The position numbers and the translations under genes are program-made. Below the pieces are notes generated by a model. It saw only the letters and a list, made by a program, of their open reading frames with translations. It was not told the origin of the DNA and did not search any database. This document shows positions 6,426 through 25,239 of a DNA stretch of 25,375 nt, piece by piece; the stretch's first letter is position 1, and each line of letters starts with the position of its first letter. The stretch is taken from positions 1 through 25,375 of IMG/VR virus record IMGVR_UViG_3300035162_002296; one strand, written 5' to 3'. Source of the DNA: a virus.

Positions 6426-6686
6426 TTAGCCAAATTTAGCTGCAAACTTTTTAAGTGGTAAAGTATCGAATGAACCAAACTCATCCGAGACTCTATAACT
6501 CAATTTACCGCCTGATAATAGTGGCTTCGCTGAATATAATTTGCCATCTTTAGCTCTCAAACCCGTGATTTCAGCACCAGATAAAGAAAGGCCCTTCAGC
6601 TTTGGAGCTTTAGCTTCGTCTACAGGATCTTCAAGTATCAATTCGACCTCGTCGACGCCCTTTATATAATCGTTAAATGATTTCAT
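6426..6686 (-). CDS. Small late protein with MKSF N terminus, 86 aa
   Basis: It starts MKSFNDYIKGVDEVELILED, resembling in its first eight residues the T4 capsid-targeting peptide MKTYQEFIAE (aromatic at 4 and 7, acidic at 6, Ile at 8), but without Glu at 10. The C-terminal part (SGAEITGLRAKDGKLYSAKP...) looks like a small beta domain. ATGA overlap couples it to the gene upstream. Function unknown; head packaging is a weak suggestion. Confidence 0.6.
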   Translation of the reverse strand: MKSFNDYIKGVDEVELILEDPVDEAKAPKLKGLSLSGAEITGLRAKDGKLYSAKPLLSGGKLSYRVSDEFGSFDTLPLKKFAAKFG

Positions 6687-6991
6687 TTTTTATTTACCTT
6701 TTTATTCTCGAACTCTGCCCATTCTATTGTTTCAATGTTAGCAATGCGAGCCTCTAATTGATCGATTTTCTTCGTGACATGCGGGTATTTATGACGCCAT
6801 GCTTCTGGGTTATCTTGTAACCAAGTCCACCCAAATCGATCTACCAAATAATCTAGGAATAAATCAAATTTTGCATAACACCAGAGTGCAGCATGTGTGT
6901 CTTTGAACCATGCAAGGAATGCGGCTCCAAAAATAGAACCAGCGATTGCCGTGTAGATCCAAAGGGTATCATCAAACATTTCGGCGAACAT
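6683..6991 (-). CDS. Membrane protein with C-terminal helix, 102 aa
   Basis: The start chosen is ATG at 6991 (FAEMFDDTLW...), preceded by GGAGAAGAAGCTG inside the end of the lipase gene; a later ATG at 6979 is also possible. One membrane helix (IYTAIAGSIFGAAFLAWF, about residues 12-29) is followed by an aromatic-rich segment (FDLFLDYLVDRFGWTWL) and a helical C terminus ending ENKKVNKK. The gene overlaps its neighbours on both sides, so translation is coupled. No family is recognised. Confidence 0.65.
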   Translation of the reverse strand: MFAEMFDDTLWIYTAIAGSIFGAAFLAWFKDTHAALWCYAKFDLFLDYLVDRFGWTWLQDNPEAWRHKYPHVTKKIDQLEARIANIETIEWAEFENKKVNKK

Positions 6992-7754
6992 CAGCTTCTT
7001 CTCCAGTGTATTGTGCGTAGTAATTAGAACTATGATCGAAGAAGTTATCAAATGGTTGACCTTTCTTCAATGCAGCCCATCGACCTTTCATCTTATCTCG
7101 GAATCTAGCACCCCAACTCAAACCAGCATGAACATTCCCTTTGAAGTCGATGTACATAGGACCACAATGATGTCGATATCCCATAATTGCCAGAGGAACA
7201 GTAGGCACGATGTCATTGTTATTGACGAATCGGAAATGAGGGACGTGTTTGAATGCCTTAACAAAGTCACTAGTACCTGTTCGAGGTGATCCGTAAGTGA
7301 ATAATGTATCAACACCGATGTCCATAGAGAATCGAGATGCAGCAACGGTTGCCATTGCACCACCCAAAGAGTGACCACATAGTGTGAGCTTCTTGTACAG
7401 ATGCGGCGTCAATCCATCAAGAATCATCGGCCACAATTTTTCTAATTCGTTTTGAAAGCCGTTGTGAACTTTTCCATGACCAATCATAGGCTTGTCTGGC
7501 CACGCATTGAGGTCAGCTAATAGATCTGAGAATTCAGCAGGTTCGGTACCTCGGAAGGCAATAGCAACTTCATGCTTATTCGATACTATGTGGCATTGTG
7601 CGCCGTCGTGATCGAGAAATTTGTGTGTCGACCAGTTTAATGCTTTGAAATGCGGTTTGGCTTCTTTACCATCTAGGTAGGCTGCTTGGGCCATTACTGC
7701 ATGTCGGTGACACTCAAGAATATCTTCATGGCTAAAAGTTGTTACTTTGCTCAT
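6972..7754 (-). CDS. Class 3 lipase (alpha/beta hydrolase), 260 aa
   Basis: The lipase class 3 nucleophile elbow GHSLGG is at residues 127-132, making S129 the nucleophile. D181 (FVNNNDIVP) and H241 (FFDHSSNYY) complete a Ser-Asp-His triad in the normal order. EVAIAFRGTE (62-71) is the conserved strand and oxyanion region upstream. There is no signal peptide, so it would work after entering the cytoplasm or membrane, or leave at lysis. GGAG at 7760-7763 best fits ATG 7754, with 7757 as an alternative. It is the first gene after the minus-strand late promoter and leads the small membrane-protein unit, which suggests phospholipid or storage-ester breakdown late in infection. The catalytic class is confident; the substrate is not. 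Confidence 0.88.
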   Translation of the reverse strand: MSKVTTFSHEDILECHRHAVMAQAAYLDGKEAKPHFKALNWSTHKFLDHDGAQCHIVSNKHEVAIAFRGTEPAEFSDLLADLNAWPDKPMIGHGKVHNGFQNELEKLWPMILDGLTPHLYKKLTLCGHSLGGAMATVAASRFSMDIGVDTLFTYGSPRTGTSDFVKAFKHVPHFRFVNNNDIVPTVPLAIMGYRHHCGPMYIDFKGNVHAGLSWGARFRDKMKGRWAALKKGQPFDNFFDHSSNYYAQYTGEEADVRRNV

Positions 7755-7784
7755 CATTAGCTCCACAATTTAGATTCTAAAGTT

Positions 7785-7798
7785 TTATTTATAAATAA
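7785..7798. promoter_or_regulatory. Palindromic bidirectional T4-type late promoter
   Basis: TTATTTATAAATAA is a perfect 14-bp palindrome. It holds TATAAATA on the plus strand (7790-7797) and on the minus strand (7793-7786). The minus copy is 32 bp from the lipase start and should drive the unit 7754-5568. The plus copy points to the heme oxygenase gene, which also has its own early-type promoter. Confidence 0.7.
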
Positions 7799-7810
7799 CG
7801 ATGAATTGTC

Positions 7811-7839
7811 TTGACAATTACATTAAAACCTGATATAAT
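7811..7839 (+). promoter_or_regulatory. Consensus sigma70-type promoter for bilin genes
   Basis: TTGACA (7811-7816) and TATAAT (7834-7839) are exact consensus boxes with an ideal 17-bp spacer. Heme oxygenase starts 28 bp after the -10. Strong early transcription by host RNA polymerase is expected. Confidence 0.88.
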
Positions 7840-7867
7840 ACATATTATTCGATCAAAGAGGCATATT

Positions 7868-8482
7868 ATGGCGAACAATTTAAAAGAACTTACTTGGGAC
7901 CATCACCAAAACGCTGAGAGGACTGAGTTTGCTGAATTGCTGATCAGTGGTGATATCCACCCTAAACTCTATCAGAAATACTTATATGCCCAAATGATTA
8001 TTTACGGGACATTAGAAACGACAGTAAAAATTCCGTCTGAACTAGATAACATCTTTAGGTCTACAGCTATCATGGAAGATCTGCAAGAACTAGAGGATCT
8101 ACATGGTCTGCCGGAGATTGGTGAGACATACGACTCGGTGGGTGAATATATTCTACATATCTGTGATTTAGAAGACAAGAAAAATAACGATGGTCTTCTT
8201 GCGCATCTCTATGTTCGCCACTTCGGTGATCTGCATGGCGGCCAGATTATCAAAAAGCATGTGCCGGGATCTGGATCAATGTACGAATTTGAGGATCGAA
8301 AGTTATTGATCACCGGAGTTCGAGCCCTGTTACACGATGAGATGGTCGATGAAGCCAGAAAGTGTTTCGAATTTGCTGAACGGTTATTTTATGAGCTTAT
8401 GGACGATTGGAACTCTGGAAATGGTTACGAGGAATTAACAAGTTTTGTCGACCCGGAGTCAGATGATGATGAAGACTATTGA
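7868..8482 (+). CDS. ho1: Heme oxygenase (HO-1 type), 204 aa
   Basis: It cleaves heme to biliverdin IXalpha, CO and Fe2+, using reduced ferredoxin in bacterial/cyanophage systems. The N terminus has the heme-ligand motif H13-x-x-A-E (DHHQNAERTEF), and the distal helix reads FGDLHGGQ, where most members have GDLSGGQ; the Ser-to-His change is unusual. Length (204 aa) is normal, with an acidic extension (DPESDDDEDY). The start is ATG 7868, after AAAGAGG. The stop overlaps the bilin reductase start, so product can pass straight to the next enzyme of the pathway. The consensus early promoter lies upstream. The family is clear from the two motifs and the neighbour. Confidence 0.9.
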   Translation: MANNLKELTWDHHQNAERTEFAELLISGDIHPKLYQKYLYAQMIIYGTLETTVKIPSELDNIFRSTAIMEDLQELEDLHGLPEIGETYDSVGEYILHICDLEDKKNNDGLLAHLYVRHFGDLHGGQIIKKHVPGSGSMYEFEDRKLLITGVRALLHDEMVDEARKCFEFAERLFYELMDDWNSGNGYEELTSFVDPESDDDEDY

Positions 8483-10343: not shown

Positions 10344-11045
10344 TTGAAAGCATATTATATTTTTGGACTACAAAGAACTGGTACTTACTGGCTAGAAAAG
10401 ACATGGACAGCCAATTTCTATCAGAGTCAATGTAGCAATCGAGAATTCGGTATATGGGCTAACAAGTCTTTGCCATGGAAACATTTAGTAGAACCAGAAA
10501 ATGCCAACTTCGAACCAGATATTCCAAGTCTGGTTATCATAAAAAATCCTTACACATGGATCGAGTCTATAATCTTTCGAAATCCTGTGGACTTCTTCGA
10601 AACACAAAGTCTCTATGAGCAATATAAAACTCCCGAAGATATACTCGTACGAGGTATCAGTGTTGATGCTCTAGCAAAGATATGGAACAAATTCTATATG
10701 CACTGGGTATTCCAGAAACACGAGAATATTTGTTATGATAACATTTTCATATTCAGATTCGAGGATCTAATCAATCCGAAGGTGAATGCAGGTCTTGTTA
10801 GAATGGCATACAAGAAACTTGGGTTCGAGCCCGAACGAGAAGAAATTCTGAAGACACATTCCTGGTTGAAGCCAGACGACATATTTTTCTGGCCGCCGTT
10901 ATCCATAGATAAAGATTATGATGTAAATTCAGAACAATATTACGTCGAAGAAAGGCCAAAACAACTTACGGCAGCACAGACAGCTAGAATTACTGAAACA
11001 CTGCATACATACACTATGATTAAAATGGGCTATCAACCGCTATGA
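10344..11045 (+). CDS. Sulfotransferase-like protein, 233 aa
   Basis: The only possible start is TTG at 10344, because the in-frame upstream codons run into TAA; GGTGGTGAT lies just ahead. GLQRTGTYW (8-16) resembles the 5'-phosphosulfate-binding loop of PAPS-dependent sulfotransferases, and IIKNPYTWIESIIFRNP (near 70-86) the 3'-phosphate-binding motif. The next gene is a paralogue that shares PWKHLVEP/TWKHLIEP and KNPYTW[IL]ES. ATGA overlap links them. It would transfer sulfate from PAPS to a sugar, peptide or small molecule; the acceptor is unknown. Kinase-like P-loop function is the alternative. Confidence 0.7.
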   Translation: MKAYYIFGLQRTGTYWLEKTWTANFYQSQCSNREFGIWANKSLPWKHLVEPENANFEPDIPSLVIIKNPYTWIESIIFRNPVDFFETQSLYEQYKTPEDILVRGISVDALAKIWNKFYMHWVFQKHENICYDNIFIFRFEDLINPKVNAGLVRMAYKKLGFEPEREEILKTHSWLKPDDIFFWPPLSIDKDYDVNSEQYYVEERPKQLTAAQTARITETLHTYTMIKMGYQPL

Positions 11046-11707
11046 ATTTTTATATGTTTGGATTACAAAGAAGTGGCACAAACTTTGCTTATGATACAAT
11101 CCACGGCAATTTTGAAAACATGCTGCAACTGAACATTGAGGATTATAATGTAAGCTCTCCTACATGGAAGCACTTGATAGAACCAAGAAACGAATGGGTT
11201 CCAAATGTTCCTGTGTTGTTCGTGTACAAAAACCCATACACTTGGTTAGAATCTGTAGCATTTCGCAACTCAATGGATTTTTGGGAATCTCATGGTCAGG
11301 AAGGGAGGCAATCACCAATCGTGCCTTACTACGCCGATAAGAATAGAAAGGCCCTGGTCTACTCTTTTGAGCATGCCGTCAGAATGTGGTGCCATGCTAT
11401 TCACTCATGGGCGATAGATCCGCCATTCCCAACATTTCCCATAAAATATGAGGATTTGTTGTCCGAGGAGAGCAGGGATAAAATCTTTGCTGAACTGGGA
11501 GATAAATATAATCTAACGCCTTCATCAACTGCCGGGTTTGTTCCTGCCGCAGGGCAAGTCATAAATTCGGAGTCATACACCCTACCAAGGGGTGACTATT
11601 ACAAAGAAGGACATCCACAAAACCTCTCAAAACACTTTATTGAAATGGTGGGAGAGCTTTTAGATGAAGATATCTTGAATTTCACAAAATATGAAAAAAT
11701 AGGTTGA
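11042..11707 (+). CDS. Sulfotransferase-like paralogue, 221 aa
   Basis: MNFYMFGLQRSGTNFAYDTI opens with the same P-loop-like GLQR[TS]GT as the gene before it, and VYKNPYTWLESVAFRN is the paired phosphate-binding motif. The two genes overlap by four bases (ATGA) and are clearly a tandem duplication that has diverged in the C-terminal half (acceptor side), suggesting different acceptors or a heteromer. Its 3' end carries the -35 box of the next promoter (TTGACA 11704-11709), so the replication module is switched from inside this gene. Confidence 0.7.
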   Translation: MNFYMFGLQRSGTNFAYDTIHGNFENMLQLNIEDYNVSSPTWKHLIEPRNEWVPNVPVLFVYKNPYTWLESVAFRNSMDFWESHGQEGRQSPIVPYYADKNRKALVYSFEHAVRMWCHAIHSWAIDPPFPTFPIKYEDLLSEESRDKIFAELGDKYNLTPSSTAGFVPAAGQVINSESYTLPRGDYYKEGHPQNLSKHFIEMVGELLDEDILNFTKYEKIG

Positions 11708-16611: not shown

Positions 16612-16619
16612 TATAAATA
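16612..16619 (+). promoter_or_regulatory. T4-type late promoter TATAAATA
   Basis: An exact late core lies 23 bp before the 476-aa gene, between the early replication module and the late genes. Confidence 0.75.
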
Positions 16620-16642: not shown

Positions 16643-18073
16643 ATGAAAAGTTTCACTGTTTTTTTAGAATCATTATCCCCTGCAGATGAGAATCGCTTGG
16701 CGCTGGAGATCGTAACAGAGATTGATAACGCTATTGGTTCAATTCCCACAGAAATTTCTATCGACGACAGACCTAAGAAATCTAACAGCGCAAAGCTCGG
16801 GATTTCTCAGTTGATGGCTGATAAAGATAGAACCAAATATGCTCCGTTAGCAAATGACTTCATATCCTCTCATGCAGACTTAGAGATTGCTTCGGTACCG
16901 GCAGCTCGCCGTGAGAAAGATTATGCCTTCAAGCACAAGGACATGGATCGAATTGTCTATGTGAATGCTAGACCAGATGGCAAGCGTTCTGGTGCTGGTG
17001 ATGACCCACATGAATTGATGACTGCGTCTCTCATGCTGAAATCAAGCATCACTAATCCTACAAACTCGGATGAGATGGATGTTATGATTGAAGAGGTTCG
17101 TGGTAGCTTGAGTAAAGTCAAAGGATATAAACAAGGACAGGTTGACAGTCTCACAGGAGATTATTCAAATCTGGCCAAAGCAGTTTCTGCGGCTCAGGCA
17201 ATTCATGGTGCTGGTTATGGTGGGGCTGACATGGTCTATCTCACCGGTCAATCTTGGGATGAAGATGTGAAAAAATTCCAAATCTCTAAGTACGGCATGA
17301 ATGACTTTAATTCTTCTGATTTTATCATTAGAAAAGGCAACAAGCACTTGGGTGTCTCTCTGAAGAAGAAGATTCGTCTCACTGAAACCGATCCTACCTT
17401 AATCAACAAATCATTTTCCACACTCTTTGCAGACAAGAAGTTTGAAAAGATGATGAAGAATATCGATAAGAAAGCAGGCCTGTTCTATCTTAAAGTCATT
17501 GCAAGGGCTAAGAAGAAAGGTGAATTATCTCCTGCAATCTTAGCAGACATGAAAAAGACACGGCCCGATACAAAGAACTGGAAACAATATGTTCAACGTA
17601 TCAATAATGAGATTATCAATGCCGAATTGAGAACATCTCGATCGCTCTTTGAACCGATTGCCAAATCGATCATTGCAAATAAAGAGATGATTGGTAACCA
17701 GTTAGTACAATTGATTTTCAAAGCAGATTTAAAAGACTTGCAGAAAGTCGATTTCGATTTTACTCTTGTGACAGGTATCGGTGATTATGGCCCCAAGAAA
17801 GGTGTTGTAATCGAGAAGGGTGAATACAAAGACATCGATACTGTCTCAGAAAAAATAGAAAACCTCGCCTCCAAAGGTGGTGTCGAATTAGATTACACAC
17901 CAGGCAGTGTGCAGGCATTTGAACCTGGATCGACTGCTGCGATGCTACAATTTGACTTGAAACTAGGTGGTGTGGTATTATGTCATATTAAGTTGCGATA
18001 TAAAGGGAACTTTAGATCTGCTCCTTCATTTACTGCCGTGATGAGTGATGAGTTTAAAAACATATATAAGTAG
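16643..18073 (+). CDS. Late protein of unknown function, 476 aa
   Basis: It is the first gene after a late promoter and starts MKSFTVFLES, like the head-targeting peptides of T4 internal proteins (MKTYQEFIAE), although the Glu is one position early. The middle has helical, Lys-rich segments and a possible degenerate nuclease core: SSDFIIRKGNKHLGVSLKKK, where D226 and S239-x-K241 have the spacing of D...(E)xK. The C-terminal part (FDFTLVTGIGDYGPKKGVVI...) looks alpha/beta with a final beta sheet. No known family is recognised with confidence. Candidates are a packaged DNA-binding or nuclease-like protein, or a structural protein. Confidence 0.75.
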   Translation: MKSFTVFLESLSPADENRLALEIVTEIDNAIGSIPTEISIDDRPKKSNSAKLGISQLMADKDRTKYAPLANDFISSHADLEIASVPAARREKDYAFKHKDMDRIVYVNARPDGKRSGAGDDPHELMTASLMLKSSITNPTNSDEMDVMIEEVRGSLSKVKGYKQGQVDSLTGDYSNLAKAVSAAQAIHGAGYGGADMVYLTGQSWDEDVKKFQISKYGMNDFNSSDFIIRKGNKHLGVSLKKKIRLTETDPTLINKSFSTLFADKKFEKMMKNIDKKAGLFYLKVIARAKKKGELSPAILADMKKTRPDTKNWKQYVQRINNEIINAELRTSRSLFEPIAKSIIANKEMIGNQLVQLIFKADLKDLQKVDFDFTLVTGIGDYGPKKGVVIEKGEYKDIDTVSEKIENLASKGGVELDYTPGSVQAFEPGSTAAMLQFDLKLGGVVLCHIKLRYKGNFRSAPSFTAVMSDEFKNIYK

Positions 18074-18080
18074 GAGTTAA

Positions 18081-18806
18081 ATGAAACCTTTTAGTTATGA
18101 AATATTTCGAGATGTGAAGGGCAAAGAATTGAGGAATACCTTTCCGGGTTGGTTTGATATAGAAAAGAACTATTCGGAATGTCTGCAAGATATTTTTGTT
18201 TTGATGGCAACAAATGGTAAGAAGAATGGTTCTTATGTAGAGATTGGATGTGATCAGCCATATCATAGAAGCAATACGGCTATTCTCCAAGAACATGAAT
18301 GGGTTGGTGTGAGCTTTGATATCAACAAAGCTGCTGTAGACGATTGGAATGAGAAACGGGGCAAGTTCAATATCAAGGCTCCTGTAGGTGGTAGAAATAG
18401 AGCATATGCTTGTGATGCTACTACAATATATCTGTCAACCTTTTTGTCTCAACATTCGCTTGGCAGAGACATAGATTATTTGCAATTAGATATTGATCCG
18501 CCAGATTTGACATATCAGGCAATGCATAGAATACCTTGGGACTATCATAGGTTTGCTGTTATCACATATGAACATGATAGTTATTTTTATCCAGACAAAG
18601 ATTATAGATCTCTGTCGAGAGAATTTTTGACAAAGAAGGGTTATGTACTGGTGGCCCCGAATATATCACCAGACGAAGATCGCACGAGAGCATTTGAAGA
18701 TTGGTGGGTACACCCTGAGTTGATTGAACCAGATGTCCTCGAAAAAATAAAAAGTTTAAGTGATGAACATAAAACACCAATGGACTATTTACTAGGAAAA
18801 GTTTAA
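18081..18806 (+). CDS. FkbM-like SAM-dependent methyltransferase, 241 aa
   Basis: Motif I reads SYVEIGCDQPYHRSNTAILQ (51-70), as in FkbM proteins (VDIGAN-type loop plus SNT). The acidic end of strand 2 is GVSFDIN (76-82), and IDYLQLDIDPPDLTYQAMHR (about 131-150) is the following strand. This fits a Rossmann methyltransferase acting on a sugar or other hydroxyl. The neighbours include GT32, GT25 and a sulfotransferase, suggesting surface-glycan work. Start preceded by TAGGAG. The stop overlaps the next start (TAATG). Confidence 0.75.
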   Translation: MKPFSYEIFRDVKGKELRNTFPGWFDIEKNYSECLQDIFVLMATNGKKNGSYVEIGCDQPYHRSNTAILQEHEWVGVSFDINKAAVDDWNEKRGKFNIKAPVGGRNRAYACDATTIYLSTFLSQHSLGRDIDYLQLDIDPPDLTYQAMHRIPWDYHRFAVITYEHDSYFYPDKDYRSLSREFLTKKGYVLVAPNISPDEDRTRAFEDWWVHPELIEPDVLEKIKSLSDEHKTPMDYLLGKV

Positions 18807-20035
18807 TGATTTCTTTTAAAGATTATCTTGTCGAAGGTAAAAATCTGCATATGACTCACCTAGAAGATGCTCTTCTGGATGGTGGTGTGAAGGGAACACG
18901 TAATGTTATCCTTTATCTCCGGTCTTTGCGGGATATGCTAGCAGGCAACACAAGCGCCCCCATTAGTATTACCACCAAGTGGGATGGTGCCCCTGCTATT
19001 TTTGCTGGCACAGATCCCAGTGATGGGAAATTTTTTGTGGCCAAGAAAGGTGTCTTTAATAAAGAACCAAAAATATATAAAACAAATGCTGAAATTGATA
19101 ATGATCTGAGTGGAGATCTGGGTGCAAAGTTTAAAGTTGCGCTTGCAGAATTCTCGAAGCTTGGAATTGAAGGAGTAGTGCAAGGTGATTTCCTCTATAC
19201 GAACGACGATCTCAAGACAGATAACATTGATGGAGAACCGCATATTACTTTCCATCCTAATACCATTGTTTACGCGATACCTCTCGGCTCAGAACTCGCT
19301 AAAACGATTTCAAGATCCAAGATCGGAGTGGTCTGGCACACAGTATACAGAGGTGACTCTTTTGAAACAATGTCAGCAAGTTTTGGAAAGGCGATCACAC
19401 CAGGTCTCAAAAAAATAAATTCTGTGTGGAATGTAGATGCTATATTTAAAGACGCATCAGGAACCGCAACATTTACTGACCAAGAAACAAAAGAATTCAC
19501 TGCCCTATTATCTAAGGCAGGGAAATTATTTCAAGGTTTGAAGCGAGGTGTTCTAGACGGGTTGCACACAAATTCCGAATTAAACATGAGAGTCAATACA
19601 TATATAAACTCTAAAGTTCGAGAAGGATCTAGAATAGGTGACACTAAGTCATTCACAATGGGCTTGATCAATTTCATCGAAGATTACTATCAGAAACAAG
19701 CAGACAAGAGAAAGACTCCTGCCGGAAAGGGCAAACAAGTAGATGCTAAGAACTCTGTATTGGAATATTTCAATAAGTACAAGCAGTCAGATATCGAAAA
19801 AGTGTTCCAATTGTATGATATGTTAGTTGACGCTAAGCATGTTGTCATAGATAAACTAAATACTGTTGACGGCATGAAAACCTTTTTGAAGACTTCTAAA
19901 GGGTTTGAAGTAACCGGTCAAGAAGGATTTGTTGCCATTGACCACATGGGCAAAAATTCATTGAAGTTAGTAGATCGATTACAATTCAGTAGGGCAAACT
20001 TCTCTACCGATTATATTAAAGGCTGGCAAAAATGA
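18806..20035 (+). CDS. Ligase-like nucleotidyltransferase with KxDG motif, 409 aa
   Basis: SITTKWDGAPAIFAG carries the KxDG nucleotidyltransferase motif I (K58-W-D60-G61) of ATP-dependent ligases and capping enzymes. FFVAKKGVFN (77-86) resembles motif Ia, and GVVQGDFLYT (124-133) motif III (hydrophobic-G-[DE]-hydrophobic). IGVVWHTVYRG (173-183) could be the motif IIIa/IV region. I believe it belongs to the uncharacterised phage family DUF6267. The N terminus MISFKDYLVE|G aligns position by position with the T4 capsid-targeting peptide MKTYQEFIAE|A, with the cleavable L-x-E|G. So it may be packaged and injected. Late and translationally coupled on both sides. Confidence 0.7.
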   Translation: MISFKDYLVEGKNLHMTHLEDALLDGGVKGTRNVILYLRSLRDMLAGNTSAPISITTKWDGAPAIFAGTDPSDGKFFVAKKGVFNKEPKIYKTNAEIDNDLSGDLGAKFKVALAEFSKLGIEGVVQGDFLYTNDDLKTDNIDGEPHITFHPNTIVYAIPLGSELAKTISRSKIGVVWHTVYRGDSFETMSASFGKAITPGLKKINSVWNVDAIFKDASGTATFTDQETKEFTALLSKAGKLFQGLKRGVLDGLHTNSELNMRVNTYINSKVREGSRIGDTKSFTMGLINFIEDYYQKQADKRKTPAGKGKQVDAKNSVLEYFNKYKQSDIEKVFQLYDMLVDAKHVVIDKLNTVDGMKTFLKTSKGFEVTGQEGFVAIDHMGKNSLKLVDRLQFSRANFSTDYIKGWQK

Positions 20036-20253
20036 CGAATCGGATTCTGCTCTTAACAGATATAATAGAACAGAAGATCCGAAAAGAAAAAGAGCTTGCT
20101 TATTACCAAGACCAATTGGATGAGTTGAATTCTAAAATGTGGTGGATTCAAAAAGAAATAAATGTCACCAACCTTTGTATTGAGGTGATTCAAACCGAAA
20201 AGGCTAATATTATTTCGGGTAAATTATTGGGGAAACGTGAGGATGAACATTGA
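20032..20253 (+). CDS. Coiled-coil protein, 73 aa
   Basis: ATGA overlap with the ligase-like gene. The product (MTNRILLLTDIIEQKIRKEK, then ELAYYQDQLDELNSKMWW...) is predicted as a continuous helix with heptad-like spacing of Leu/Ile, without membrane segments. It may be a partner of the upstream protein. Its end overlaps the glycosyltransferase start. Confidence 0.6.
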   Translation: MTNRILLLTDIIEQKIRKEKELAYYQDQLDELNSKMWWIQKEINVTNLCIEVIQTEKANIISGKLLGKREDEH

Positions 20254-20887
20254 GAAAAAAATCACTCAAATATGGATAGGGCCCAAACCACCTCCTACTA
20301 AGTGGATGAACACATGGAAGGAGATGCACCCCGATTGGGAACACACTGTTTTCACAGATCAAATGCTCAAGTCTAGAACTTGGTTTAACCAACACCTCAT
20401 AGACCACTATTATAAAACAGAAAAATGGCCTGGTGTCTCTGATCTCATTCGATATGAGTTGTTATGGGAGCAAGGCGGCTTTATGCCAGAAGCAGATTCG
20501 GCTTGTTTGCGACCTGTAGATGAGTTGTTCACATCACCAAAAAATTATGCATATTCTTGCTATGAAAACGAAAAGTATGCACCAGGCTTTATCTGCCCCA
20601 TCCTTGCATGCAACCCAAAGAATGATCTTGTTGGTTATATCATCAAGACTTTAAATAAATTGAAGCCACACGAACTTAAACCCGAGCCTTTTAGATCTAC
20701 CGGCAATCTATTTCTATCTAAGATCGTGCCGAAGTTTTCGACGTGCACACTCTTCCCATCTTACTTTTTTGTGCCCCAGTGGTATTATGGTCCTCGATAT
20801 GACGGCCCCGGCAAGATCTATTCAGATCAATACTGGGGCTCTACTGGACTACATAAAAATGTAGTAACATATGATAAAGGAACTTGA
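20243..20887 (+). CDS. GT32-like glycosyltransferase, 214 aa
   Basis: The start ITQIWIGPKPPPTKWMNTWK is typical of GT32 enzymes (IPK.IHQ.W.G...P...). GVSDLIRYELLWEQGGFMPEADSACL is the conserved core, SD..RY..L...GG; where family members have YxDxD, this protein has MPEADS, so the first Asp of DXD becomes Glu. It may still bind a metal, or prefer another donor. It transfers a sugar, perhaps to host or phage surface glycans. ATG 20243 (GGGGAAA upstream) is preferred over the in-frame GTG 20237. The next gene is a sulfotransferase. Confidence 0.75.
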   Translation: MNIEKKITQIWIGPKPPPTKWMNTWKEMHPDWEHTVFTDQMLKSRTWFNQHLIDHYYKTEKWPGVSDLIRYELLWEQGGFMPEADSACLRPVDELFTSPKNYAYSCYENEKYAPGFICPILACNPKNDLVGYIIKTLNKLKPHELKPEPFRSTGNLFLSKIVPKFSTCTLFPSYFFVPQWYYGPRYDGPGKIYSDQYWGSTGLHKNVVTYDKGT

Positions 20888-20889
20888 TC

Positions 20890-21576
20890 ATGTATCTATC
20901 TCACAAATATAAATTAATCTTTCTAAGAGCGCCCAGATCTGCTGGTAGTAGTATAGTGGAATTTTTAGTTAAGAATCTTGACGATCCTGAAGCTATTCAC
21001 ACCACTGTGGAAGATGGAGACACTATACAGGGCAATGTCCCTCCAGTAATGCTTCTAAATAAAAGACATCAAAGATGCCACCTGTCTATTGAGGACCTGA
21101 TAGAATATTCACTCATATCCAAGAAACAGGCAAAAGAATATTATGTCTTTACGATATTGAGAGATCCAGTAGAAAGGCAACGAAGTTTCTACCGTTTCTT
21201 AAAACAATGGTGGTCACCAGACACCGAGCCCTCCGCAGAAGAATATATAGATTGGAACCCGGACGGTTATTCATTTCGAAAAGAATCCAGAACGGCAATC
21301 AAAACAATGGATTTGATAAAATTAAATGATTCTATCGTGGGGAAAGTTTGGCTGTATGAGTACATAGAAGGACATTTAAAGGATTTGATGGCATCCTTAA
21401 ATACAAAAGTTGTACATCCTATGCCACACTATAAGAAAACAAATAAACCTGATCTTGATATTAGTTTTTCAATTGAAATGCTCAGTATTATTAAAAAAGA
21501 CTTCCTAGAAGATTTTAACACATATTCACAACTCAGAGTACAAAGTTATGAAACCGACCCGCGCTATTATCCTTAG
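20890..21576 (+). CDS. Sulfotransferase (Sulfotransfer_2-like), 228 aa
   Basis: KLIFLRAPRSAGSSIVEFL gives the 5'-phosphosulfate loop at residues 7-20, and FTILRDPVERQRSFYRFLKQ (near 89-108) the 3'-phosphate motif (R-D-P-x-x-R-x-x-S). This is the pattern of membrane-type carbohydrate sulfotransferases and differs from the tandem pair at 10344 and 11042. It probably acts on the product of the glycosyltransferases on both sides. ATG 20890 with AAGGA upstream is preferred to TTG 20884. It overlaps the GT25 gene by 29 bp. Confidence 0.78.
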   Translation: MYLSHKYKLIFLRAPRSAGSSIVEFLVKNLDDPEAIHTTVEDGDTIQGNVPPVMLLNKRHQRCHLSIEDLIEYSLISKKQAKEYYVFTILRDPVERQRSFYRFLKQWWSPDTEPSAEEYIDWNPDGYSFRKESRTAIKTMDLIKLNDSIVGKVWLYEYIEGHLKDLMASLNTKVVHPMPHYKKTNKPDLDISFSIEMLSIIKKDFLEDFNTYSQLRVQSYETDPRYYP

Positions 21577-22276
21577 ACACCAATCGTCTGTGTCTCACCA
21601 ATATGCACTTCAAACTGCACAATCATGTGATGCTGTCGGCTTGCCGTGGCACTATTATGATGGCTATTCAAATATGACAGGGAAGGATGCTTGGGGCCAG
21701 ACTGGAATTAAAGTACAATTTGAATTTAATGATCCGCCTGTTGAGATGCGGCCTGAAGATTTGTTGCCAGATCATAAAGCCAATTGCGCAAGTGCAGGGC
21801 ATGCTGGAATCTGGTCACAGATTGCCAAGGGTAATGATGAAGCAGTTGTTGTCCTAGAACATGATGCGATGATGCTTCAACCAGTCGACATAGACATCCC
21901 TGAGCGCACAATCGGTGTCTTGGGCTATAAAGTCACAGATCCCCAAAATTATCGACACATAGAAGCAGGGCCACCAAAAACATGGATCGATATAGATGGA
22001 CACGAAGGTGCGCATGCTTATGTACTCACAAAGGATACTGCACAATACCTTGTCGATGAGATTGAAACCCAAGGTGTTAGAGGTGCTGTTGATAACATCT
22101 ATTTTATCAGAGGCCAAAGGCGAACACGAATTCCTCTGAAAATTGCATCACCGACACCTGCCATTGGTTGGATAAGAGAATCAACTATCTGGGCTGGTGG
22201 TCAATCTGCGACGAGCAACTACAAATTTATAAATTCATTTGATCGTCACTACAGTAAAGACAATAAATATAAATAA
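21548..22276 (+). CDS. GT25-like glycosyltransferase, 242 aa
   Basis: RAIILRHQSSVSHQYALQTA, then CASAGHAGIWSQIAKGNDEA and VVVLEHDAMM (E104-x-D106) match the GT25 (LPS beta-glycosyltransferase) layout: N-terminal donor strand, GH..W segment and acidic E/D-x-D motif. GAHAYVLTKDTAQYLVDEIE and GAVDNIYF are the conserved C-terminal parts. It follows a sulfotransferase and a GT32 enzyme, so together they may build or edit a sulfated sugar. The late promoter of the next gene overlaps its stop codon. Confidence 0.78.
   Translation: MKPTRAIILRHQSSVSHQYALQTAQSCDAVGLPWHYYDGYSNMTGKDAWGQTGIKVQFEFNDPPVEMRPEDLLPDHKANCASAGHAGIWSQIAKGNDEAVVVLEHDAMMLQPVDIDIPERTIGVLGYKVTDPQNYRHIEAGPPKTWIDIDGHEGAHAYVLTKDTAQYLVDEIETQGVRGAVDNIYFIRGQRRTRIPLKIASPTPAIGWIRESTIWAGGQSATSNYKFINSFDRHYSKDNKYK
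22268..22275 (+). promoter_or_regulatory. T4-type late promoter TATAAATA
   Basis: An exact late core overlaps the end of the GT25 gene and lies 30 bp before the 977-aa gene. Confidence 0.72.
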
Positions 22277-22305: not shown

Positions 22306-25239
22306 ATGCCTAAAAAGATTAAAGAAGTCGAAGATCAAGACGTTGATCAAGATGAGAAGCCCGCGAAGCAGGCCAAAAAAGAGCCTGAAAAGAAAGACAA
22401 AAAGAAGTCTAAGAAGATGGCTATTGCTTTCAAAGAATTTGATCCTGGCAAATATGTTGAGATCAATCCTGTTACCGAGGCTGTCAAGAAGAACGAGATC
22501 GTAATCTCTTTTGGTCGTATGAATCCAATTACAATTGGACATGAAAAAGTAGCAGATAAAGTCCTATCTATTGCAAAGAAGACCGGCGCTGAAGCTGGAA
22601 TCTATTTGTCTCACTCTCAAGATGCCAAGAAGAATCCTCTGTCTTATGATCAAAAGATCAAATATGGCCAGGCTGCATTCGGTAAGATTGTAAAGAAATC
22701 AAAGTCAAAGACAATTATTCAAGTAGCTCAAGAACTTCAGAATTCATTCAAGAATTTGACTATTGTTGTTGGGTCAGATCGTGTTAAAGAATTCGAAACA
22801 TTGCTCAATAAGTACAACGGTAAAGATTATACTTATGATGCTATCAATGTAGTCTCTGCTGGAGAACGAGATCCTGACGCCGAAGGAGCAGAAGGAATGT
22901 CTGCATCCAAAATGCGCAAGGCCGCAGCAGACGGTGATTTCGATTCATTCAAGAAAGGCTTGCCTAAAAAACTCCAACGAAAAGCACAAGAGGTTTGGGA
23001 TGCGGTTACTGGGGCGATGAATGAAGAAGTAGAACTTGATGAAGCAAAGTCTGCTACAGGATATGACCTGTATCACAAGACATACTCTGATGCAATGCAA
23101 CATGCTTATGCACATGCTAAGAAGAAGCATGGCGTAACTGTTAGTTCCGATGAAATTGATAGTAAAGTTGCAATGGGACCAAAGAAACCGTCTACTGGTA
23201 AAACTGTATCCCACATTCTTGGAACTAATAAGAAGAAAAATCTTCACGTTCAGGTCTACAACACTGGTAAGTCATACGAACTCAATATGTATGTTGAGGG
23301 TGTTGAAGAGTCCGAGGTCGAAGAAGCTTTGAATCCGGCACAACGCCGGGCCCGTGGCATACAGATGAAGAAGTTATCCAAAAAGATTGCTCGTAAGAAA
23401 AAGCAAACAATGAAGAAGCAGGCCTCTACCGAAAAATTGAAGGGACGTGCAGAAAAAGCGGCAAGAAACATTCTGAAGAAGAAGATTTCTGCTGGTAAAG
23501 ACACAGATGACTTGTCATATGCCCAGCGGCAAAAGATTGATGATAAAGTTAAAAAGATTGGGGGAGCTAAATTAAAGACTCTTGCCAAGAAGTTATTGCC
23601 TCAGATTAAGGCAAAAGAAAAAGAACGAATTAAAAAATTGCGTTCGAAAAAAGAAGAGTTTGTAGATGAGACAATTGATCTCAAGGAAGCTCTCGATTCT
23701 TATATGGAAGGTGGGATGCTCGACGAAGCAAGACATGCGCCAGTAAGAATCATGGCCCGCCCCCATCGCTTGTTGTCGGCAGACAATAAAGTTAAAATTG
23801 ACATGAGATTCAGTCAATATCGAAAATGGAAGCCCATTGTCGAACCCGCACCTAGTACAGATCAGGTCGACTCTCCCGAGCCGGAACTTGATGAAGAGGA
23901 TCCTTGTTGGGATGGATATCAGCAAGTAGGCATGAAGAAGAAGAACGGCAAGAAAGTTCCTAATTGTGTCCCCGAAGAATTCGAAGAGAATCTGAACCCT
24001 AGGCAGATTGCACTGCTCAAGAAAAACTATTCTACAATTGACCGGATCGACCCCAATGGCCCTGCATACAAGAAAGCAAAAGGGATGATTGCTGGATTAG
24101 AGAAGGATAACCTGATTGACTTAGCAAAATCAAAGGTCAAGTTCATATCACAGATGGCGGCTGACGAGTTACGAAAGACACATAATGTCAAGTTGAAGGC
24201 CTCTGAATACATGGAGTCAGTAGATCTCGAAGAAATCGAGGAAGGTGTCAATGATCCAGCTATATTTAAAGCCATCTTCTTGGCGGGAGGCCCAGGTTCT
24301 GGCAAGTCATTCATTGCAGGTAAGTCTGCTTTCTCTACATTTGGGATGCGTGTAGTCAATTCTGATGACGCATTCGAAAGCGCGATGAAGAAAGCTGGAT
24401 TGGATCTGGGTAAAGACATATTCACTGACAAAGGTCAAGAGATCCGTAGCAAGGCTGTGGATATAACAAAAATGAGACAAGACTTGTATATCAAGGGCCG
24501 GCTTGGTCTTGTCATCGATGGAACTGGCAAAGAATATGATAAAATCAAAAATCAAGCTACCGAGTTAAAGAAACTTGGTTATGATGTTTCTATGGTCTTT
24601 GTCAATACAAGCCTTGAAACTGCTCAGGAACGAAATCAAAATCGTGATAGGAAGTTGCCTGAAAAACAAGTAGAAAAGATGTGGAAAGAAGTTCAAAAGA
24701 ACATCGGCAAATATCAGTCTCTATTCAAGAAAGACTTCATCGTTGTTGATAACAGCGAAGGTGTTAATTGGGAAAAGGGCGTAATGAAAGCATATAAATG
24801 GGCTATGAAATGGTCTAAGAAGGAACCACAAAGCTCAACGGCTCAAAAATGGATATCCGACATGCGCGAAGAGTTGGAAGAATCTACATTCGAAGGTTCT
24901 GTTATTGATTCTGTAGTCCCTTGGTTAGGTCGATGGCTCGACACAAGGGTCAAAAAGAAAGCATACACAGCTGCTATTAGATACTTCCTTAAATTACGAA
25001 AGAAGAAGCCCGGAGAAGCAAGAAAGAATCTCGTCAAGTCTGCTCAGGTTTTTGATCTTGATGTAAGAGCATTGGATAAGATGTTCAGAGATCTTGTCGC
25101 CAAAGGAGCTATGCCTAAACATCTTATCCAATATCATCCTACCTTTAAACCTGAATCGTATGATAATGAAGCCGGGGCCGGTGAAGAGGGCTCTGATAAA
25201 TTAGTAAACAATTATAAGTCCGACACGCCTGGAGAATAA
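22306..25239 (+). CDS. 977-aa multidomain protein: nucleotidyltransferase, P-loop kinase
   Basis: After a Lys-rich tail (1-37), residues about 63-235 form a cytidylyltransferase-like domain: SFGRMNPITIGH (69-79, the HxGH-type motif), VVGSDRV (154-160) and SASKMRKA (199-206, the ISSTxxR-type motif), as in NMNAT. Residues 253-331 (YDLYHKTYSDAMQHAYAHAK...) are a module I associate with T4-like marine phages. A very basic stretch follows (340-450). Residues 656-855 are a P-loop kinase (GGPGSGKS 661-668, VVNSDDAF, GLVIDGTGKEYDK, lid NRDRKLPEKQ). A 118-aa helical C terminus ends it. Sites of the T4 prohead-protease type lie at 246|247, 461|462, 474|475, 646|647 and 859|860. Late promoter upstream. 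Domains are seen; polyprotein processing is inference. Confidence 0.8.
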   Translation: MPKKIKEVEDQDVDQDEKPAKQAKKEPEKKDKKKSKKMAIAFKEFDPGKYVEINPVTEAVKKNEIVISFGRMNPITIGHEKVADKVLSIAKKTGAEAGIYLSHSQDAKKNPLSYDQKIKYGQAAFGKIVKKSKSKTIIQVAQELQNSFKNLTIVVGSDRVKEFETLLNKYNGKDYTYDAINVVSAGERDPDAEGAEGMSASKMRKAAADGDFDSFKKGLPKKLQRKAQEVWDAVTGAMNEEVELDEAKSATGYDLYHKTYSDAMQHAYAHAKKKHGVTVSSDEIDSKVAMGPKKPSTGKTVSHILGTNKKKNLHVQVYNTGKSYELNMYVEGVEESEVEEALNPAQRRARGIQMKKLSKKIARKKKQTMKKQASTEKLKGRAEKAARNILKKKISAGKDTDDLSYAQRQKIDDKVKKIGGAKLKTLAKKLLPQIKAKEKERIKKLRSKKEEFVDETIDLKEALDSYMEGGMLDEARHAPVRIMARPHRLLSADNKVKIDMRFSQYRKWKPIVEPAPSTDQVDSPEPELDEEDPCWDGYQQVGMKKKNGKKVPNCVPEEFEENLNPRQIALLKKNYSTIDRIDPNGPAYKKAKGMIAGLEKDNLIDLAKSKVKFISQMAADELRKTHNVKLKASEYMESVDLEEIEEGVNDPAIFKAIFLAGGPGSGKSFIAGKSAFSTFGMRVVNSDDAFESAMKKAGLDLGKDIFTDKGQEIRSKAVDITKMRQDLYIKGRLGLVIDGTGKEYDKIKNQATELKKLGYDVSMVFVNTSLETAQERNQNRDRKLPEKQVEKMWKEVQKNIGKYQSLFKKDFIVVDNSEGVNWEKGVMKAYKWAMKWSKKEPQSSTAQKWISDMREELEESTFEGSVIDSVVPWLGRWLDTRVKKKAYTAAIRYFLKLRKKKPGEARKNLVKSAQVFDLDVRALDKMFRDLVAKGAMPKHLIQYHPTFKPESYDNEAGAGEEGSDKLVNNYKSDTPGE

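Follow-up and report, generated by a model that had tools for sequence, protein, structure and literature searches.

The window analysed here, a stretch of 25,375 nucleotides of viral DNA from IMG/VR, carries the T4-type replication genes gp59, gp32, uvsX and gp41 (assigned by Pfam/PHROG). As in HTVC008M and Melnitz, this replication cluster also houses, adjoining uvsX, gp41 and gp32, genes whose products begin with a short peptide, hereafter the tag. Its full form in the window, MISFKDYLVEG, makes up the first 11 codons of the DUF6267 gene (Table 1; in all sequences an arrow marks the would-be cut). The start at 18806 is supported by relatives, which share the methionine and follow it with a different but equivalent decapeptide, and by the frame, which is open for only 11 codons further upstream. 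Pfam matches the protein only from residue 13 onwards, so that the tag lies outside the described DUF6267 domain. It also lies outside the predicted fold, with residues 1-15 of the AlphaFold model disordered (pLDDT <50) and a short helix at residues 4-8. Between the DUF6267 gene and that of a 977-aa multi-module protein, positions 20237-22276 hold glycosyltransferase- and sulfotransferase-like genes, and two tandem sulfotransferase-like genes lie at 10344-11707, all assigned by eye only.

Table 1. Coordinates of tags, genes, modules and promoter elements in the window.
Feature	Coordinates	Strand	Remarks
Small module behind long tag MKSFNDYIKGVDEVELILEDPVDE↓AKAPKLKGL	6426..6686	-	predicted cut after residue 24, codons 6615-6686
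T4-type late promoter element TATAAATA	16612..16619	+	31 nt before ATG at 16643
phrog_3060 protein, first tagged gene of the cluster	16643..18073	+	phrog_3060 E 4.4e-32
MISFKDYLVEG, putative capsid-targeting sequence with first residue past the predicted gp21 cut	18806..18838	+	E10↓G11
DUF6267 (PF19782, phrog_455), likely ligase-superfamily-like nucleotidyltransferase, 409 aa	18806..20035	+	Pfam E=3.7e-108
T4-type late promoter element TATAAATA	22268..22275	+	38 nt before ATG at 22306
977-aa multi-module protein	22306..25239	+	Pfam/PHROG; gp21-like sites between modules
NMNAT/cytidylyltransferase-like module	22480..23043	+	after VTE↓A (58/59), ends near LDE↓A (246/247)
P-loop kinase module	24244..24882	+	after EIEE↓GVNDP (646/647), ends ELEE↓S (859/860)

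Mutagenesis of the T4 internal protein IPIII has established that the first ten residues are enough for targeting, that residues 4 and 7 serve targeting and residues 8 and 10 processing, and that gp21 cleaves after L/I-x-E; that such a capsid targeting sequence (CTS) lets T4-like phages pack various proteins is a known concept, already suggested as general (PMC9026906). MISFKDYLVE meets both rules, with F4 and Y7 as the aromatics of the targeting positions, and L8 and E10 as the residues of the processing site (I/L at 8, E at 10). We took 66 related loci from IMG/VR and chose DUF6267 homologues by the body of the protein only; the full pattern (aromatic at 4 and 7, I/L at 8, E at 10) was present in 34 of the 43 distinct N-termini. 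Of the nine exceptions, four or five come close to the pattern (MQSFSQFLLSE, MVRTFKQHLTE, MFSFKGFFTKE, MFSFKGFVTKE, MYNDLLVE), and the others have no tag and start at the domain itself. Across 32 distinct DUF6267 tags the residues between the key positions vary freely, position 6 being the most variable (2.95 bits), whilst position 11 is E, S, D, A, Q or G; in most of them this P1' residue is E, S or D, not A or G. The nucleotides encoding the tag are only 15-25/33 identical between relatives, yet the residue classes stay. The initial annotation, made from sequence alone, had aligned MISFKDYLVE↓G without gaps to MKTYQEFIAE↓A of T4, and this held at positions 4, 7, 8 and 10; its further descriptors, an acidic residue at 6 and a small one at 11, failed as defining features. 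The survey of tag starts in related genomes that it proposed was run, and the reach of the tag is wider than proposed.

To gauge chance, we took the non-overlapping ORFs of 12 genomes or segments and counted how often the pattern stood at their start codons, for comparison with 300 decoys, made of identical residue classes with their positions permuted. The true pattern matched 42 times; the decoys averaged 4.4 matches (sd 2.3) and never exceeded 12. The window alone, with its one match, is weak evidence. In a 100-kb scan of T4 (50-150 kb), the matches were IPII and IPIII only.

The tag is borne by many proteins besides DUF6267. The 123 distinct tagged ORFs fell into about 36 groups, of which two belong to T4 itself and one is probably a chance match, and about 33 unrelated non-T4 families bear the peptide; those named by Pfam are adenylate kinase, HD_4, S-AdoMet lyase, protein kinase/APH, cytidylyltransferase-like and DUF6321. 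Eight tags occur on a single 218-kb contig (G001), seven of them within 13-31 kb. The peptide is, moreover, separable: where a domain is found both with and without the tag, the untagged form begins where the tagged one would be cleaved. DUF6267 of S-SZBM1 starts M-AKNTHLEHLED where tagged forms read ..E↓xKNTHMEHLED, and amongst the phrog_13937 proteins DLP6 gp65 starts MANLSPAELRKYDWR where the protein of L052 reads MKSFRSFLSE↓GANLAPSELYKYDWR. The pelagiphage HTVC008M (NC_020484) has gp21 and the same gene order; the full tag is absent and short remnants stand in its place, MYNDLLVE↓D on DUF6267, with MIPFILKE↓G also found among the starts of kinase and other proteins.

Some of the tagged proteins deserve mention in their own right. 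A HAD-like protein (LTIFDIDETLF) is encoded directly upstream of tagged DUF6267 at G001:29494, L006:2460, L017:57, L038:6577 and L045:9390, and is itself tagged; searched against solved structures, it gave no match. A tagged HD_4 domain protein (G010/L122:2968-3594, Pfam E 2.9e-16) is possibly a head-carried nucleotide hydrolase. Directly behind the tag at L074:9257, L081:38819 and L079:12846 stands a motif of the form AKxLNLKxxGxGxYxDxxGxxTxxSxxGKL, and this AKxLNLK-type motif is common to three different virion enzymes, two NMNAT-like and one kinase. A PADLOC run on the tagged proteins returned no matches.

Virion proteomes of cyanophages bear on where tagged proteins end up. The virion list of S-CREM2 comprises 52 of its 219 proteins, and a scan of the whole genome found four tags at annotated starts: gp6 (S-AdoMet lyase, MKDFDSFLEE), gp13 (MKDLHSFLTE), gp14 (kinase, VKRFDAFLTE) and gp154 (cytidylyltransferase, MKNFSSFLTE↓A). 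All four were detected in the virion (hypergeometric p=0.0029; p=4e-4 among non-structural genes). In S-SCSM1 the NMNAT gp91 (MKSFLQFLKE↓A) was detected and the 106-aa gp30 (MKTFKQFMSE) is not in the list, giving five of six tagged proteins in the virion for the two phages pooled (p=0.0013). Sullivan et al. detected the cytidylyltransferase T4-GC190 in the virion of S-SM1 (PMC3037559); this is SSM1_190, and its N-terminus is tagged (MKKFSAFLNE↓A). The virion-detected cytidylyltransferase of S-SZBM1 starts MRFRQFIIE↓A, one residue short of the tag. DUF6267 itself is untagged in S-SCSM1 (gp257), S-CREM2 (gp87) and S-SZBM1 (141), where it starts at the would-be cleavage point, and these untagged forms are absent from all three phages' own virion lists. 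Tagged proteins in and untagged DUF6267 out is what one would predict were packaging decided by the tag, although caution is needed, as the lists differ in depth and absence from a list is weak evidence. Our search turned up no virion proteome for phages whose DUF6267 is tagged, such as Methylophilales phage Melnitz (EXVC044M), phage C48C1 or Stenotrophomonas phage DLP6; packaging of tagged DUF6267 is therefore a prediction, and evidence of virion presence comes so far from other tagged families. Mature N termini are likewise absent from the reports of the proteomes used.

Two further observations were made on these virions. The second new virion protein of S-SM1, T4-GC15, was considered as a candidate for DUF6267 and ruled out, DUF6267 being T4-GC71. 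A stretch resembling the tag, LRFASFMAE↓A, lies at about residues 17-25 of S-CREM2 gp12 (L079:7704-10313, minus strand), a virion-detected protein annotated as a CRISPR-associated Cas9/Csn1 nuclease, and is reminiscent of the long IPI-type tag.

A gene for the prohead protease (Peptidase_S77, gp21) was found in seven of ten relatives' contigs and in none of 14 control genomes, and gp21 is annotated in Melnitz, HTVC008M, S-CREM2 and S-SCSM1. It is absent from the 25-kb window, a fragment that stops short of that region. T4-type late promoter elements, of which two precede genes of the window (Table 1), accompany 9/39 tagged genes vs 99/1805 others (p=2.8e-4), and many tagged genes without one closely follow another gene. 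Elsewhere in the window, two elements of this type, at 7790 (+) and 7793 (-), overlap within TATTTATAAATA (7785-7800), which separates a lipase-3 gene on the minus strand (6972-7766) from a heme oxygenase gene on the plus strand (7811-8482).

As for the enzyme behind the tag, an alignment of 25 DUF6267 sequences shows KWDG at 58-61 with K58, D60 and G61 invariant, together with G127-D128, E373-G374-x-V376 and K387; that these later residues correspond to ligase motifs III-V is our own reading. When the AF2 model (pLDDT 82.7) was compared by VIA-align, the twelve best matches were all RNA/DNA ligases (Z 5.4-7.0; TbREL1 7.0, T4 Rnl2 6.4). Since these scores are moderate, a ligase fold is likely, not proven. 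Foldseek with the same model gave nothing significant, its top matches being spurious and helical, and the DUF6267 profile found none among the sequences of solved structures at E<=1. On the strength of motifs and predicted structure, DUF6267 is probably a covalent nucleotidyltransferase with an RNA-ligase-like fold, its activity being inferred.

The window holds two altered forms of the tag. MKSFTVFLES, at 16643, keeps F4, F7 and L8 and lacks E10; an orthologue of this protein in L131/L132 (68% identity) starts with the full tag MKKFKSHISE↓Q, and we therefore regard MKSFTVFLES as worn or differently processed. A structure model of the 16643 protein, built from 5 sequences, was unusable (pLDDT 47), and no function could be drawn from it. 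MKSFNDYIKG, on the minus strand at 6686, similarly keeps positions 4, 7 and 8 without E10, and the protein then continues ..EDPVDE↓AKAPKLKGLSLSG. In relatives its AKAPKMKGLSLYG module follows MKDLATFME↓A, MKQFTELRKEEVEE↓A or the internal VEE↓A of a longer protein, which is why the 6686 N-terminus looks like a long tag of the IPI style. Both tags appear to be real, with the cleavage site displaced or lost.

The 977-aa protein is made of NMNAT/cytidylyltransferase-like, basic, CWxGY and P-loop kinase modules, which are separate genes elsewhere. In relatives the NMNAT-like domain lies directly behind an N-terminal tag (MKKYSQFLKE or MKKFSEIIE↓A), and in the window behind an internal VTE↓A. [LIVM]xE↓G stands before the kinase module in 12/12 distinct sequences, mostly as the end of an N-terminal tag, complete or shortened (MESFKTFIAE↓GVNDP, MKNFQTFLEE↓GVNDP, MIRFKRFLEE↓GINDP), and as an internal site in the window and three others (IEE↓GVNDP, LNE↓GVNDP, LNE↓GVHDP); against solved structures this module gave weak adenylate-kinase-like matches only. 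Nine loose gp21-like sites occur in the 977-aa protein vs 4.0 expected (p=0.017). The edges of its homology blocks coincide with such sites no better than with other glutamates (p=0.33), so the case for a polyprotein rests on the conservation of module borders. Strict gp21-like sites are not enriched within tagged proteins generally (29 vs 27 expected), and internal processing is thus suggested only for specific module borders. Cutting of the gp21 type inside the 977-aa protein is conceivable, and we put it forward as a reasoned suggestion only. The small CWxGYxxVGxKxKxGKxVPNC module (window 23890-23980; also L036, L038, L045, L049 and L088) is found both alone behind tags and inside larger proteins.

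We conclude that MISFKDYLVE is, with high confidence, a T4-type capsid targeting sequence by which a DUF6267 enzyme is predicted to be packed into the head as one of a set of tagged proteins; docking, the exact cut, ejection and the reaction catalysed are all inferred. In this scheme the ligase-like enzyme would be made late in infection, and its tag, through the aromatics at 4 and 7, would dock on the scaffold core while the prohead is forming. Cleavage after E10 by the gp21-type protease would then leave the mature enzyme (GKNLHMTH...) inside the head, from which, by inference from T4, it would most likely enter the next host with the DNA. DUF6267 would be one of many unrelated proteins of related phages onto which the tag has been spliced; in the window, the set would extend to the 16643 and 6686 proteins with their altered tags, and to equivalent cut sites between the enzyme modules of the 977-aa protein. 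The earlier description of the enzyme as 'ligase-like' is thus supported by the KWDG motif and structure comparison, and MKSFTVFLES and MKSFNDYIKG, which had been proposed as weaker versions of the tag, both exist in that form, without E10. As for the suggestion of a set of ejected proteins, packaging is supported by the proteomes of four cyanophages, ejection by inference from T4 alone. Several observations tell against the CTS reading: most DUF6267 tags lack A or G at P1', HTVC008M has gp21 yet no full tag on its DUF6267, the tagged gp30 of S-SCSM1 is not in the virion list, and the window contains no gp21 gene.

Other explanations must be weighed against this one. Resemblance by chance, or through AT-rich codons favoured after start codons, draws some support from the window itself, in which 15 of the 300 decoys also find at least one match. 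As a general account it is already refuted by the decoy comparison across genomes (42 vs 4.4), and the conservation of positions 4, 7, 8 and 10 amidst freely variable neighbours, with the peptide class kept as nucleotides diverge, leaves it virtually no room. Nor is there much left of the idea that the N-terminus is the first helix of the DUF6267 fold, kept for folding. The peptide is indeed present on most DUF6267 proteins, and the model has its helix at 4-8; however, the cyanophage homologues and that of L067 do without it and start at the domain, which already contradicts this reading, whilst the N-terminus is the least confident part of the model and the same peptide occurs on unrelated proteins.

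Perhaps the decapeptide is instead a docking peptide for a cytoplasmic partner of phage or host, such as the replisome, and virion detection mere carry-over. The position of tagged genes within the replication cluster, in the window, HTVC008M and Melnitz, would fit. Yet polymerase, primase/helicase and recombinase are absent from the S-CREM2 virion list in which all four tagged proteins appear, the gp21 rule (E10, hydrophobic 8) is kept where docking would not need it, and late promoter elements are enriched at tagged genes; we consider this reading highly improbable. Less remote, though still not favoured, is the possibility that the tag sends proteins to the head for a role in assembly or DNA packaging, without delivery into the host. 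T4 IPIII affects head morphogenesis (PMC9026906), and ejection is only inferred here. However, the varied enzymatic cargo (SAM lyase, kinase, adenylate kinase, HD domain, NMNAT-like, ligase-like) is better suited to delivered effectors, and in cyanophages with an untagged DUF6267 the assembly of the head does not depend on DUF6267 within it.

Beyond the CTS reading that we prefer, a bolder one could be entertained, which we think unlikely: that heads are loaded with a modular end-repair and nucleotide kit of RNA-ligase-like DUF6267, HAD-type phosphatase, P-loop kinase and NMNAT-like enzyme, partly as a polyprotein cut by gp21 at internal targeting-type sites. Were this doubtful proposal true, RNA or DNA broken by host defences (cut tRNAs, for example) could be mended as soon as infection begins, and repair of the kind that T4 draws from Pnkp/Rnl1 would be supplied by the particle and not by early genes.

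Marine T4-like phages rank among the most abundant of viruses, and their virions contain many proteins still without an assignment. With the ten-residue rule, candidate delivered proteins can be drawn from any such genome or metagenome contig by its sequence alone, including enzymes that would act before any phage gene is expressed, and the tag offers a reason for the repeated presence of NMNAT-like enzymes and kinases in cyanophage virions. Our search of the open literature (subscription papers lay outside it) found no paper applying the capsid targeting sequence to cyanophages or pelagiphages. Within that literature, the spread of the tag across marine T4-like phages with its enzyme cargo, the agreement with virion proteomes, and the exchange with internal sites of multi-module proteins all appear to be new. 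The tagged NMNAT/cytidylyltransferases detected in the virions of S-SM1, S-SCSM1, S-CREM2 and S-SZBM1, whose gene adjoins DUF6267 in most, are close precedents; the relevant passages of the cyanophage virion papers report their presence and name no targeting tag (PMC3037559, PMC9602691, PMC10665884, PMC9146016).

Amongst known enzymes, T4 RNA ligase 2, trypanosome RNA editing ligase 1 and archaeal Rnl share with DUF6267 the KxDG motif and the (here predicted) fold of the adenylation core. Unlike these solved ligases, with which it has no detectable sequence kinship, DUF6267 has a large helical insert (225-351) and a head tag, and its activity is untested. T4 Alt, the head-packaged ADP-ribosyltransferase, is likewise an enzyme that bears a propeptide and passes from the head into the host, although it is unrelated as an enzyme and its propeptide reads MELITELFDE. 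Polyvalent proteins (PMC5512222) are similarly multi-domain and inferred to be packaged and delivered into hosts; their processing, where present, is attributed to peptidase domains of their own, whereas the module borders of the 977-aa protein match gp21-type sites. A close likeness is that to T4 IPI, IPII and IPIII, whose CTS agrees with the marine tags in length, position, aromatics at 4 and 7, I/L at 8 and E10, and which share with them late promoter elements, a gp21-type protease (in relatives of the window) and the use of one tag on unrelated proteins. Even the longer tag of IPI (MKTFKEFTSTTTPVSTITE↓A) has its counterparts, in the 6686 protein and in FKEF...PVTE↓A of the 977-aa protein. 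The marine tags differ from those of the T4 internal proteins in that their cargo is often enzymatic and drawn from many more families, that P1' is often E, S or D, and that equivalent cut sites occur within multi-module proteins.
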